NCBI GenBank assembly: GCA_021200695.1
Contig: JAJQGF010000010.1
Coordinates: 1 to 32,519 of the forward strand
Source: Lachnospiraceae bacterium
GTDB taxonomy: Bacteria > Bacillota > Clostridia > Lachnospirales > Lachnospiraceae
Direction of reading: 5' to 3'
Length of the DNA: 32,519 bases
Below are positions 7,416-28,765 of this stretch, in pieces. The position numbers and the translations under genes are program-made. The stretch's first letter is position 1; each line of letters opens with the position of its first letter. The notes below the pieces were generated by a model. It saw only the letters and a program-made list of their open reading frames with translations, had not been told where the DNA came from and ran no database searches.

Positions 7416-8645
7416 TTACCCAATATGCGCAATGGCACCCTTCATACGCTCTACCGCCTCTACGGTATTTTCGTAGCTTCCGAACGCAGTAAGACGGAAA
7501 TATGTCTCACCGCTCGGTCCAAAGCCGGAGCCCGGCGTACCTACTACATTTACGTTTTCAAGCAGATAGTCAAAGAACTCCCAGCTGGTCATTCCTGCCG
7601 GAGCCTTGAGCCAGATATAGGGAGAGTTTACGCCTCCCGACACCGTATAGCCTGCGGCCTTAAGATTATCAAATATATAATGTGCGTTGTTCATATAGTA
7701 AGCAACCTGCTTTTTGAGCTGCTCTTTTCCGGCTTCACTGTACACGGCCTCTCCGGCGCGCTGAATAATATACGGCGCACCGTTGTACTTTGTTCCGTGG
7801 CGTCTTGCCCAAAGGGCATTGAGAGATACTCCGTCTGCCTTTAAATCCTTAGGAATTACAGTGTAGCCAAGCCTGAGTCCGGTAAAGCCTGCATTCTTTG
7901 AAAAGGAATGAAACTCTATGGCGCAGCTCCTCGCGCCCTCGCACTCATAAATGCTGTGAGGAATGTCAGGCTCTGAAATATATGCTTCATATGCGGCGTC
8001 AAAAAGAATCACCGCACCAACCCTGTTCGCGTAGTCAACCCACTCCTGAAGCTGCTCCTTGTTTACGACAGCGCCTGTAGGGTTGTTGGGAAAGCAGAGA
8101 TAGATAAGGTCAGGCGTCTCCCTAGGCAGCTCGGGCGCAAAGTTATTTTCAGCCGTACACGGCATATATATTACATCACTCCATGTCTCGGATTTACTGT
8201 CATATGTACCGGTTCTTCCCGCCATTACATTTGAGTCCACATAGACCGGATACACAGGGTCACACACTGCAATCTTATTGTCAATGCTGAAAATTTCCTG
8301 AATATTTCCACAGTCGCATTTAGCACCGTCTGATACAAAGATTTCATCAGGAGTAATATTACAGCCTCTGGCCCTGTAATCATTCTCTGCTATTGTATTG
8401 CGCAGGAATTCATATCCCAAATCCGGAGCATATCCGTGGAAGGTTTCTGCGTTTGCCATCTCGTCCACCGCACCGTGAAGGACTTCAATTATAGCCGGCG
8501 CAATTGGCTGTGTCACATCTCCGATGCCGAGCCTGATGATTTTAGCCTCCGGATGCGCCGAAGAATACGCATTTACCTTCTTTGCAATAGTTGAAAAAAG
8601 ATAGCTCCCGGGTAATTTTAAATAGTTATCGTTTATCTTAAACAT
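7416..8645 (-). CDS. dapL: LL-diaminopimelate aminotransferase
   Basis: DapL converts tetrahydrodipicolinate directly to LL-diaminopimelate using glutamate, bypassing the succinylase/acetylase routes to lysine and cell-wall meso-DAP. The 409-residue length matches the family. Visible signatures are [10 protein letters not shown] near the N-terminus, [19 protein letters not shown] and the PLP-binding Lys250 in [10 protein letters not shown]. The start used is the ATG at 8645 after GGAGGAATA; the ORF track extends 14 codons too far. It follows dapF by 38 bp, so two consecutive steps of the same pathway are encoded together, downstream of glnA. Confidence 0.96.
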
Positions 8646-11730: not shown

Positions 11731-12279
11731 TTATCCTCTCATCATGGAGAGTACCATAAGCGCCGTCTCAACCATATTTGTCCCACTGTCCATACTGCAT
11801 TTCTGAATATATCTGTGGGCCTCCTCCTCAGTCATGTGATTGCGCGCCATAAGAATTTCCTTGGCCTCCTTTATGGCGCTCTCCTCCTCGGCACTTCTGA
11901 CCTTAGGCTTAGACTTTGCCCTGCGCCTTCTCCTCTCAATACCCTCCACCAGCATATTTACCGTGTTTATCAAATCATCTGTCTTTAGAGGCATTGAAAG
12001 GCACACTATGTCATTTCCGTAACATTCATCTATAAGACGCGCCGACGCCATAAGCAGCATTTCAAAGCCTGAGGGAAGATATTCATGTAATTCTGAATAT
12101 ACCATATCCGTAAGCTTATAGCTGCATACCACCAACCCATCGCTCAGGCCATCCGCCTGACTTACCGCCTGCGCGCCGGTCGTACATATACCGGTGACGC
12201 TGAAGCCGCTTCTCACCAGAATATTTCTGATAATCTTGGCCTCCTCCATCTTCGGCAGCGCTACTATTATATTTGTCAA
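11731..12279 (-). CDS. ANTAR-domain RNA-binding regulator with degenerate receiver domain
   Basis: A 182-residue protein. The N-terminal 110 residues have a response-regulator-like receiver fold, and residues about 125-180 form an ANTAR domain (IKEAKEILMARNHMTEEEAHRYIQ). ANTAR proteins bind paired stem-loops in mRNA and prevent termination, often in nitrogen metabolism. The receiver lacks the usual phospho-acceptor: the beta-3 strand reads LVVCSYKLTD, with Cys/Ser where Asp is expected, and beta-1 (ALPKME) lacks the acidic pair, so ordinary phosphorylation is unlikely. It starts at TTG (12279) after GGAGGT and lies 38 bp downstream of glnA. Control of glnA or another nitrogen gene is suggested by position only. 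Confidence 0.9.
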   Translation of the reverse strand: MTNIIVALPKMEEAKIIRNILVRSGFSVTGICTTGAQAVSQADGLSDGLVVCSYKLTDMVYSELHEYLPSGFEMLLMASARLIDECYGNDIVCLSMPLKTDDLINTVNMLVEGIERRRRRAKSKPKVRSAEEESAIKEAKEILMARNHMTEEEAHRYIQKCSMDSGTNMVETALMVLSMMRG

Positions 12280-12317: not shown

Positions 12318-13655
12318 TCAATATTTATACAGATATCTGTCAAGCTCCCACTCTGATATCTGGGTGCTGTACTCAAACCACTCCTGCCTCTTGGCATCAA
12401 TATATCTCTGTGCTATATGCTCACCAAGCACATCGCATATAAACTCATCCCTTTCAAGCTCATCTACAGCCTCCTGAAGCGTTCCCGGAAGACTGTCTAT
12501 GCCCATGGCTTTTCTCTCATTGTCAGACATTTCAAATATATTGGCATTTACACTTCCCGGAGGCATAATTTTGTTGGATATGCCGTCCAGACCTGCGCTT
12601 AGGCAGACCGCCAGAGTAAGATATGGATTTGATGCCAAATCCGGACTTCTCAGCTCTATTCTGGTATTGCAGCCCTCCTTTACTGAAGGAATGCGTATCA
12701 GGGGACTTCTGTTTGTCGCACTCCATGCAATATACACAGGCGCCTCATATCCGGGTACAAGTCTCTTGTAGGAATTTACAATAGGATTTGTGACCGCAGC
12801 CATTCCCTTTATATGCTTCATCAGACCACCTATAAAATAATATGCTTCTTTGCTTAAGCCTATGGAATCCGAAGCGTCCTCAAAAATATTTTTACCGTTC
12901 ATGTCGTGAAGGGACATATTTATATGCATGCCTGAGCCGTTGACACCCTGCTTGGGCTTGGGCATAAAGGTCGCGTGAAGCCCATGTCTCTTCGCTATGG
13001 TACGGACAGCAAGCTTAAATGTCATTACATTGTCAGCCACAGTAAGAGCATCATCATATCTTAAATCTATCTCATGCTGCGCCGGCGCTATCTCATGGTG
13101 TGACGCCTCGATAACAAATCCCATATCCTCAAGCGTCATAACCATGTCACGTCTTGCATTTTCACCGAAATCAAGAGGCCCCACGTCAAAATATCCCGCC
13201 TTCTCCTGCGTCTCAACGGTTGGCATTGTGTTCTCATCTGTATCAAAAAGGAAGAATTCACATTCGGGTCCTACCTTAAATGTATAGCCCAAAGCTTCAG
13301 CCTTTTTTATTGCACGCTTTAAAACATATCTTGAGTCGCCCGCAAACGGCTCCCCATTGGGACGGTATACGTCGCATATCATTCTGGCGACCTTGCCCTG
13401 CTGGGGTCTCCACGGAAAGATTTCAAGAGTTGAATAGTCAGGATACAAGTACATATCTGACTCCTCAATCTTTACAAAGCCTACAATCGCAGAGCCGTCG
13501 AACATACATTTATTGTCCAATGCCGTCTCAAACTGGCTCGCAGTTATTGCTATATTTTTCAGGCTGCCGAACATATCTGTGAACTGAAGTCTTATAAATT
13601 CGACATCCTCCTCCCTGACAATCCTTATCACATCTTCTTTTGTGTAATTATTCAT
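12318..13655 (-). CDS. glnA: Glutamine synthetase type I
   Basis: GlnA makes glutamine from glutamate, ammonia and ATP; it is a cytoplasmic dodecamer. The 445-residue length fits the Gram-positive GSI-alpha form, which lacks the extra insertion of the adenylylated proteobacterial enzymes; I see no NLYDLP adenylylation motif. Signatures include the N-terminal DMFGSLK, FDGSAIVGF (the latch region), the ATP-binding KPKQGVNGSGMH and NPIVNSYKRLVPGYEAP. The ATG at 13655 follows GAGGT by 5 nt. It heads the predicted operon with the ANTAR gene and dapFL, and is preceded by a promoter and a structured leader. Whether expression responds to glutamine through that leader is untested. Confidence 0.97.
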   Translation of the reverse strand: MNNYTKEDVIRIVREEDVEFIRLQFTDMFGSLKNIAITASQFETALDNKCMFDGSAIVGFVKIEESDMYLYPDYSTLEIFPWRPQQGKVARMICDVYRPNGEPFAGDSRYVLKRAIKKAEALGYTFKVGPECEFFLFDTDENTMPTVETQEKAGYFDVGPLDFGENARRDMVMTLEDMGFVIEASHHEIAPAQHEIDLRYDDALTVADNVMTFKLAVRTIAKRHGLHATFMPKPKQGVNGSGMHINMSLHDMNGKNIFEDASDSIGLSKEAYYFIGGLMKHIKGMAAVTNPIVNSYKRLVPGYEAPVYIAWSATNRSPLIRIPSVKEGCNTRIELRSPDLASNPYLTLAVCLSAGLDGISNKIMPPGSVNANIFEMSDNERKAMGIDSLPGTLQEAVDELERDEFICDVLGEHIAQRYIDAKRQEWFEYSTQISEWELDRYLYKY

Positions 13656-13670
13656 GCATTACCTCATTTC

Positions 13671-13725
13671 TGCGCAGTATCTTAAATATATTGGAGTCTG
13701 CGGATACTGCGCATTCACAAACTCC
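13671..13725 (-). promoter_or_regulatory. Candidate structured glnA leader RNA (H-type pseudoknot or alternating helices)
   Basis: On the transcribed strand GGAGTTTGTG (13716-13725) can pair with CGCAGACTCC (13693-13702), giving 10 bp with two G-U. TGCGCAGTATC (13703-13713) pairs perfectly with GATACTGCGCA (13671-13681), giving 11 bp. The order is 1-2-1'-2', with linkers of 2, 0 and 11 nt; this is H-type pseudoknot topology. The last strand ends about 4 nt before the glnA ribosome-binding site. Neither helix is followed by a T-run, so any control would be on translation or RNA stability rather than termination. It does not match a riboswitch that I know. A DNA operator made of the same inverted repeat is the main alternative. 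Confidence 0.6.
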
Positions 13726-13735
13726 GTTTGTACCA

Positions 13736-13765
13736 ATAATATCAATCGTGTTTATATATTGTCAA
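13736..13765 (-). promoter_or_regulatory. Promoter of glnA
   Basis: On the minus strand TTGACA (13760-13765), an 18-nt spacer and TATTAT (13736-13741) form a near-consensus promoter. Transcription would begin near 13729, leaving a leader of about 70 nt that consists almost entirely of the paired elements described separately. Confidence 0.8.
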
Positions 13766-27589: not shown

Positions 27590-27802
27590 TTAAACGGATG
27601 TGCCGTTTAAAATAATCTTTGCCTTCTCAGTCATGGCGCTTACCAACGTCTGTATAAACTCAGTAAGACTGTCCTTCATTACCACGCACAGCAGGAGCGC
27701 TATTATGCAAAGGCCTACCGTCACTAATATTCCGTCGATTCCAGACTCCTTATGTATTGCAAGACTGATTATTTTGTTTGCGCCATCTTTTATTTTTTTC
27801 AC
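27590..27802 (-). CDS. Small Flp-like major pilin candidate
   Basis: A 70-residue protein with a basic N-terminus, the segment HKESGIDGILVTVGL leading into a single hydrophobic helix (about 21-42), and a short amphipathic tail. Size, position after tadC and the Gly-containing entry into the helix fit the Flp1-like pilin group that polymerises into Tad pili after prepilin cleavage. The classic Glu at +5 is not present; Asp in SGID may substitute. It starts at GTG (27802) after GGGTGAG. A GC-rich stem-loop lies immediately upstream. Confidence 0.72.
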   Translation of the reverse strand: MKKIKDGANKIISLAIHKESGIDGILVTVGLCIIALLLCVVMKDSLTEFIQTLVSAMTEKAKIILNGTSV

Positions 27803-27816
27803 TTTCTCACCCTTCT

Positions 27817-27857
27817 GCGGCGCTTTTCAGTATTGTCAGAGCCTGTGACTGCGCCGC
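27817..27857 (-). repeat. GC-rich stem-loop between tadC and the pilin gene
   Basis: Seven-base arms GCGGCGC and GCGCCGC enclose 27 nt that can pair further (GTCA with TGAC). It ends about 5 nt before the pilin ribosome-binding site. It has no T-run. It is a candidate processing or stabilising element raising pilin output over the assembly proteins. Confidence 0.55.
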
Positions 27858-27882
27858 GGACACAAGCCTGATGTAAAGCTGT

Positions 27883-28719
27883 TTAAAAGCTGAGCGCTGC
27901 GCTGAACATATAGTCAACGCATGCATATAAAATTACAATAAGAACCGCCGTAAGAATTCCCAACTGATAAAAGGTTATGCTTCTGTCAAGCTTTCCCTTT
28001 TTCTTTTCCATTACTGAGCCCTCCATATCCTTTATCTGTTCGGAAATGTCCCCCAAAAGCTCTACTGCCTGTCCTGACTCTAATGCCTGAAGAACTGTTA
28101 TACAAAGAGAATCAATATAACGATTATCAAACTTTGACTGAAAATCCTCCAATGCTTTAAAAATATCGGACTTAACCACCAGGTCCGAGGCAAGCTCAAG
28201 CAACGCACTCCTGAGTCTTTTCTCCCTTACGCCTCCGTAGCATTCAAGAAGGGCATTCGACATATTTATTCCCGCTCGTATCTGCATTGCCAATGATGAA
28301 TATACCAGCTTTATATCAGCAAGCATTTTTTCATTATCAACTTTGTTGAGATATGCCAGTAAAAGCATGGGCATAAGCCACATAAGCGCAGAAAATGCAA
28401 TTCCGCAGACTGTTGAAAAAGCGCTTCCCGCAAAAAAGCCTGTCAAGGCACACAATACCCCTGCCGCAAGATATTTCCCCGGGCTTATGCCCCTGCCAAA
28501 ATGAAATGCCGCACCGGTTCTTTTCAACATTCCTTCAGTTTCAAGGTACCATCCCGTCCTCCTTCCCTTTCGACTTATCAAGCCTGATATTTCCCGACAT
28601 GCCGACAATATTAATTTGTCTGTTCTTTTAAAAAGCAATATTAGGACTGCAAGAAATACAAGCGCTGCGCATACTGCTCTCAGTACGGCTGTAGCTGTAA
28701 AAAGCTTATCTGTTGTCAT
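27883..28719 (-). CDS. tadC: Tad pilus inner-membrane platform protein TadC-like (type II secretion F domain)
   Basis: A 278-residue protein with an N-terminal helix, two central helices (about 85-125) and a C-terminal helix. The cytoplasmic T2SSF domain between them contains YSSLAMQIRAGINMSNALLEC and LCITVLQALESGQAV, the typical paired helical motifs of GspF/TadB/TadC proteins. Together with TadB it forms the membrane platform moved by the TadA ATPase. The ATG at 28719 follows GGAGGG; the ORF-track start is seven codons upstream. The TadB and TadC labels are assigned by gene order. Confidence 0.88.
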   Translation of the reverse strand: MTTDKLFTATAVLRAVCAALVFLAVLILLFKRTDKLILSACREISGLISRKGRRTGWYLETEGMLKRTGAAFHFGRGISPGKYLAAGVLCALTGFFAGSAFSTVCGIAFSALMWLMPMLLLAYLNKVDNEKMLADIKLVYSSLAMQIRAGINMSNALLECYGGVREKRLRSALLELASDLVVKSDIFKALEDFQSKFDNRYIDSLCITVLQALESGQAVELLGDISEQIKDMEGSVMEKKKGKLDRSITFYQLGILTAVLIVILYACVDYMFSAALSF

Positions 28720-28765
28720 TTTCCCTCCAATTTTATACAATTCCGCCGTCTATACAACGCCATAA

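Follow-up and report, generated by a model that had tools for sequence, protein, structure and literature searches.

We found that the leader of glnA in the analysed window, a 32,519-nt stretch of a Lachnospiraceae genome, carries one copy of an apparently undescribed structured RNA element, which on sequence evidence seems to be present in tens of copies per genome in many gut Lachnospiraceae. The reading that we prefer, and to which we give a probability of roughly 60%, is a dispersed family of pseudoknots at start codons, which would spread by copying and insertion and act on translation initiation or mRNA survival, and which would not be a sensor dedicated to glutamine.

The glnA region and a second copy of the element, described below, lie on the minus strand of the window. 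A promoter of the form TTGACA-N18-TATTAT (13736-13765; 11 of 12 consensus positions in the scan, TG before the -10 box) precedes the 5' strand of helix S1, GGAGTTTGTG (13716-13725), linker L1, which reads AA (13714-13715) and is UC in most other copies, and the 5' strand of helix S2, TGCGCAGTATC (13703-13713). There follow the 3' strand of S1, CGCAGACTCC (13693-13702), linker L3, AATATATTTAA (13682-13692), and the 3' strand of S2, GATACTGCGCA (13671-13681); all four strands were assigned from the sequence and from double changes, which for the 5' strand of S1 fall in the core pairs. The conserved tail GAAATGAGG (13662-13670), near-invariant in 101 copies, contains the Shine-Dalgarno (SD) sequence GAGG (13665-13662) and is separated by TAATGC from the ATG (13655) of glnA, which encodes a glutamine synthetase of 445 amino acids (12318-13655; Pfam PF00120, PF03951). 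This copy includes an exact match to the tail GCGCAGAAAYGRGG plus ATG (G000:C309:13653-13675). The initial annotation had described two long helices in 1-2-1'-2' order with the last strand next to the ribosome-binding site, and its geometry is correct throughout: S1 has 10 bp and S2 has 11 bp, the linkers measure 2, 0 and 11 nt, with none between TGCGCAGTATC and CGCAGACTCC, and GATACTGCGCA runs directly into the SD-bearing tail.

Both glnA-leader helices are real and lie far beyond chance expectation. A scan of both strands of the 32.5-kb window for H-type knots with at least 8 bp in each helix returned the glnA-leader knot only, and four shuffled windows gave a single minimal 8+8 match. The predicted transcript begins some 5 nt before helix 1 and would hence include both helices, with a leader that consists almost only of the knot; a start downstream of helix 1, which had been named as evidence against the structure, is thus not what the promoter predicts. 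The minimum free energy (MFE) fold of the leader combines helix 2 with the small hairpin ACAAAC-GGA-GTTTGT that had also been noticed before. Single-helix energies of -14.3 kcal/mol for S1 and -16.5 kcal/mol for S2 mean that the window leader could still form two alternative hairpins. The family consensus, CAAGTTTGTG-TC-TGCGCTGC-ATC-CACAAACTTG-NNATGCGCAAAAG-GCAGCGCA-GAAATGAGG-N6-ATG, has linkers of 2, 3 and about 13 nt, the last of them A-rich toward its 3' end, and these suit a true H-type knot. The core of the S2 5' strand in the family is TGCGCNGC, the inner ATC being unpaired in most copies; the zero linker and 11-bp S2 of the window copy represent the strained end of this range, and its inner ATC/GAT pairs may be fortuitous.

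Among 195 distinct glnA leaders from Lachnospiraceae, the top four pseudoknot scores belonged to the window and three relatives (weaker helix at least 22; maximum 19.5 in 585 shuffled leaders), and the knot is present in just these 4 of the 195, namely the window, strain GAM79, its close relative G089, and G042 (locus L133). The GAM79 leader, TTTTTCACGG-A-TGCGTCCGCC-CCGTGGAAAA-GGAGCAGACA-GGCGGCGCA, keeps the 1-2-1'-2' order with different letters, and helix 1 is wholly different from that of the window while its pairing is retained. The window and GAM79 are not neighbours in the GlnA tree, where they sit among relatives with terminator leaders. Many relatives place a hexaloop hairpin of the ANTAR type, GAAC-AAGGGC-GTTC (loop with A at position 1 and G at position 4), overlapping a terminator, directly after the same type of TTGACA promoter; such leaders (e.g., L033, L041 and L164) are common in the family. 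The glnA leaders L098, L092 and L101 have another structure just before the ribosome-binding site, a nested AAGTCGC..GCGACTT with inner hairpins.

No ANTAR-type hexaloop hairpin was found in the glnA leaders of the window, GAM79 and G089, and the window leader has neither a terminator nor an A1/G4 hexaloop, which agrees with the earlier view that the ANTAR two-hairpin motif is missing. The window has lost the ANTAR-type terminator hairpin and kept the gene for an ANTAR-domain protein downstream of glnA (11731-12279; Pfam PF03861). This gene, together with the ANTAR-type terminators at the same place in relatives, would fit an ANTAR-bound antitermination leader, or alternatively a DNA operator with inverted repeats bound by a repressor. 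We consider this highly improbable, since the window leader lacks both ANTAR hallmarks, the element also occurs inside operons, and in L133 an ANTAR-type terminator is followed downstream by the knot, which ends in the same tail. Helix 1 changes in sequence and keeps its complementarity, which makes it unlikely that a repressor binds the inverted repeat as DNA.

The location in a glnA leader, abutting the SD, had led to the proposal of a cis-regulatory glnA switch. The cis-acting structured RNA in this proposal stands; a metabolite switch specific to glnA, responding to glutamine or 2-oxoglutarate, is hardly credible, as most glnA leaders lack the element, which precedes dozens of unrelated genes per genome. 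Rfam likewise offers no match, in keeping with the earlier statement that the leader does not resemble glutamine riboswitches: searches of Rfam 15 at gathering thresholds found nothing in the window or in 20 copies from the genus, and in 20 further loci from the family the element itself had no match even at E <= 1.

The extent of the family became apparent with two covariance models. Model R1, built with helix 2 and the tail only from three distinct divergent glnA leaders, has matches in 125 of the 138 genomes of the genus, where the same knot stands before unrelated genes. Model R2, which contains helix 1 only, gave 102, 73, 51 and 23 matches at E <= 0.01 in four genomes, numbers that include decayed copies; since many weaker matches are such copies without helix 1, these are not counts of intact pseudoknots. 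Strong R2 matches occurred in 47 of 334 sampled Lachnospiraceae genera. Across the class, 341 genomes yielded a single weak 50-nt match outside the family, and the element thus appears to be essentially absent from other Clostridia; the searches scored 150 candidates per genome in the four-genome census, 40 for the genus and 12-14 for the family and the class. The element had no match in plasmid records and weak partial matches only in phage records. IMG/VR gave two matches, a tail-like one and a real copy (L435); the latter is a consensus copy before a cation-transporting ATPase gene (about 7797-7870) on a contig classed as viral. Neither its sequence strings nor its topics were matched in open-access full text.

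The second copy in the window (27802-27872), supported by its sequence, the knot script and an R2 match in its own genome (E = 4.5e-7), reads CAGGCTTGTG-TC-CGCGGCGC..CACAGGCTCTG..GCGCCGCAG. The script assigns 11 bp to its S1 and 9 bp to its S2, and it is more diverged than the glnA copy. It is placed between an ORF at 27883-28740 and a GTG start at 27802, from which the frame begins VKKIKDGANKIISLAIHKESGIDGILVTVGLCIIAL.

Covariation supports both helices, and each was tested independently, because helix 1 lies outside R1 and helix 2 outside R2. In 31 copies, including that of the window, all eight core S1 pairs and 12 of 16 pairs overall show double changes, a result reached in 0 of 500 shuffles, with 60 double-change cells against 17.7 in shuffled data. 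With 101 copies, 15 of 16 pairs, again including all eight core S1 pairs, show double changes (173 cells, compared with 50 in shuffles), and the paired fraction falls from 89.5% to 21-54% in slid controls. For helix 2, the family search with R2 supplied 30 copies, with two exceptions from other genera; these carry double changes in five of eight pairs, with U-A, G-C and C-G at one position. The compensatory changes in relatives whose absence had been named as a possible objection are therefore found in both helices. This covariation shows that both helices are kept, and is by itself compatible both with a simultaneous pseudoknot and with two alternative hairpins.

Copies vary around this core. 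A script found the knot in 90 of 95 copies, in some weaker ones off the family position, and some copies have lost helix 1 and retain only the tail. Short forms that keep only ATGCGCAAAARRCAGCGCAGAAATGAGG before the start codon, with a TGCGC able to pair with GCGCA, were seen in L029, L310, L320, L337, L341, L343, L344 and L348. Extra hairpins occur in the last linker or the helix 1 loop in L323, L324, L325, L327, L331, L345 and L346, and leave the knot helices unbroken. The element before a ctpB-like gene is intact in G038 (L312) and decayed in the window's own genome (L302).

The copies share a fixed position relative to genes. They end in GCGCAGAAAUGAGG-N3-9-AUG, so that the pseudoknot abuts the SD, and the distance between fold, SD and AUG is fixed across copies. 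After 119 of 131 copies, the terminal ATG or GTG opens an ORF of at least 80 amino acids (or one open to the end of the locus), compared with 24% of background ATGs. The exact tail followed by ATG occurs 3-37 times per genome in each of 12 element-bearing genomes, and was found neither in the reversed control nor in three genomes without R2 matches. The target genes identified by HMM include ilvD, eno, leuB, nagA, metK, dapL, atpD, pyrG, glmS, gpmI, argC, proA, pnp, yidC, pyrI, ispF, dapA, rnc, cas7, rsfS and the genes for 1-phosphofructokinase, triose-phosphate isomerase (tpiA), Fe/Mn superoxide dismutase (sodA), an S41 peptidase and UPRTase; lipoproteins are also among the targets. There is no common pathway. 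A same-strand ORF ends at most 138 nt upstream of 32 copies, with a gap to the knot of 1-43 nt in 27 cases, and one copy lies below a lysine riboswitch and another below the ANTAR-type terminator of L133. These locations within operons and below other leader elements make an action after transcription more likely, and the element probably acts there rather than on transcription initiation or termination.

A single ligand or RNA-binding protein that senses all copies, and thereby controls tens of genes per genome as a translational regulon, is possible, if tentative. Such a global regulatory RNA would fit the S2 core and tail, which are strongly conserved across 47 genera, the many targets in central biosynthesis and glycolysis (metK, pyrI, pyrG, leuB, ilvD, argC, proA, dapA, gpmI, eno, tpiA and glnA) and the recurrence of metK, gpmI and pyrI as targets in different genera. 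However, the targets, among which are also cas7, sodA, rnc, yidC and lipoproteins, share no pathway, carriage turns over fast, as the 4 of 195 glnA leaders illustrate, and, L3 being weakly conserved, no ligand pocket is obvious outside the S2 core and tail.

The family seems to have reached its diverse positions by copying. The similarity between non-orthologous copies begins about 40 nt before helix 1 and stops at the ATG, and near-identical copies of 70-110 nt stand before unrelated genes. Genome G332 has 19 tail-bearing sites before different genes, with a median identity of 89% over 70 nt; 83 of 171 copy pairs are at least 90% identical, two copies (L389 and L391) are identical, and the coding and upstream flanks reach 57-60%. 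A 110-nt stretch of locus L288 recurs with 80-94% identity before unrelated genes in about 30 genomes. The element thus shows the many near-identical dispersed copies with unrelated flanks that mark BOX/RUP-like repeats; terminal inverted repeats were not seen in its copies by eye. Tandem elements, in which 3-4 nt separate the GAGG of one copy from the start of the next, were observed in L402 (G332) and at G099:C11:60782-60992.

Near-identical copies before unrelated genes, the tandem insertion in L402 and decayed copies with only the tail could also be explained by a small selfish interspersed repeat that is tolerated only at sites to which it brings a functional ribosome-binding site, any host function being incidental. 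We regard this as doubtful: neutral debris would not covary, and the compensatory changes in both helices across genera argue for selection on the RNA fold after insertion.

Some copies carry an AU-rich hairpin, P0, upstream of the knot (GATTGAAAATT..AATTTTCAATC or GAGTGAAAAAT..ATTTTTCACTC), and these copies suggest where insertion could take place. All 23 copies with a canonical P0 have a second SD before it, in most of them 3-6 nt away. Pairing with the anti-SD at -5 kcal/mol or better was found in 23 of 23 canonical P0 cases (mean -8.9 kcal/mol) versus 22 of 138 upstream control windows (mean -2.0 kcal/mol; p = 2.5e-13). In the tandem case L402, another copy provides this upstream SD with its tail. 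The element-free orthologs of the L288 gene show ordinary spacing, with an SD 5-8 nt ahead of the start codon. The second SD 5' of P0 places the element between SD and AUG, as if the ribosome-binding site had been replaced, and the simplest reading is that it sits in the SD-AUG gap, having replaced the original SD. P0 is missing from more than half of the copies and is thus not family-defining. Copies without it, which include both copies in the window, show no enrichment of an upstream SD; perhaps they are older, or they form a different type. As a general rule the upstream SD was rejected, since it holds for canonical-P0 copies only and the signal was weak when a less strict P0 finder was applied. 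A second P0 type, GAACCAAC-CTTTGTTGGTTC, forms tandem repeats just upstream of helix 1 in L384 and L367 (G332).

P0 begins with GAGTG or GATTG, which puts a GTG or TTG 5-8 nt from the upstream SD, and for 7 of 32 P0 frames the stop is precisely the TGA within GAAATGAGG; 10 run far into the gene region. Ribosomes could accordingly load at the upstream SD and translate a short GTG/TTG ORF from P0 to this TGA, or use a standby arrangement like that of tisB, whose leader is known to combine a pseudoknot with a loading site upstream (PMC7708055). We find this rather improbable, because most copies lack P0 and the frame is unconserved between subfamilies, with early stops in several copies; a conserved leader peptide was rejected because of this unconserved frame.

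In the preferred reading of a dispersed start-codon pseudoknot, a copy-and-insert process would place the element in the SD-AUG gap, after which the gene would be translated from the replacement SD of the element, GAAAUGAGG, 5-9 nt from the AUG. The pseudoknot could then act on translation initiation or on mRNA survival of the following gene. Situated 5 nt upstream of the SD, it would face the mRNA exit side of the 30S subunit with a fixed fold and could prevent the SD from pairing with upstream RNA, so that the element would work in any context. At the sequence level, the analysis establishes the conserved structure with its fixed distance to SD and AUG, the start-codon position, the near-identical non-orthologous copies, the second SD 5' of P0, and the sense orientation and spread of the element. 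The stronger formulation, a class of mobile elements that inserts specifically in the SD-AUG gap with a pseudoknot-coupled replacement ribosome-binding site and rewires tens of genes per genome, appears to us an even bet. Sequestration of the SD by the S1 5' strand was also considered; MFE folds extend S2 by a weak UUUGU/AUGAG pairing worth about 1 kcal/mol in the consensus copy, and the idea was set aside because this pairing would not survive many S1 changes.

Known systems share single features with the element. The pneumococcal BOX and RUP repeats are short, dispersed at high copy number in one bacterial group, transcribable, able to fold as RNA and probably non-autonomous (PMC3049150), and resemble it in size, copy number and a likely effect on neighbouring genes. 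They are, however, stem-loops with paired terminal inverted repeats, whereas the element is an H-type pseudoknot without obvious terminal inverted repeats, contains an SD, lies in sense orientation at start codons and covaries in both helices. SAM-II and preQ1 riboswitches are likewise compact H-type pseudoknots in leaders, with the last strand at or next to the SD, but each serves few genes of one pathway, while the element precedes up to tens of unrelated genes per genome and has no Rfam match. The tisB leader also forms a pseudoknot, and ribosomes load in a region about 100 nt ahead of its start codon (PMC7708055); there, a single gene is concerned, its ribosome-binding site is sequestered and the loading region is single-stranded, in contrast to the element, whose upstream SD is confined to P0-bearing copies. 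TAACTGA direct repeats of Beggiatoaceae, about 170 sets of which most lie within nucleotides of the start codons of unrelated genes (PMC4679880), share this position and have a proposed role in translation. Unlike the element, which carries an SD, they are unstructured heptamers without a pseudoknot that seemingly replace the SD. ANTAR two-hairpin leaders, finally, occupy the same glnA leaders in many relatives, but act by transcription antitermination; their motif is absent from the window leader, and in L133 the knot lies downstream of an intact one. None of the compared systems combines a covarying knot, its own SD, a start-codon position and a site in the SD-AUG gap. We describe the element as a variant of dispersed structured repeats that may deserve a separate category of its own.

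The signature GCGCAGAAAYGRGG-N3-9-ATG with an upstream knot could be used for annotation, and the family offers hundreds of natural replicates for testing how an SD-adjacent pseudoknot affects initiation. How such an element would find the SD-AUG gap would be a new question for mobile-element biology. If our reading is true, a dominant gut family carries a large and apparently unannotated layer at the level of translation, which moves between genes and takes over their ribosome-binding sites. This would represent a new route by which regulation can spread through a genome.
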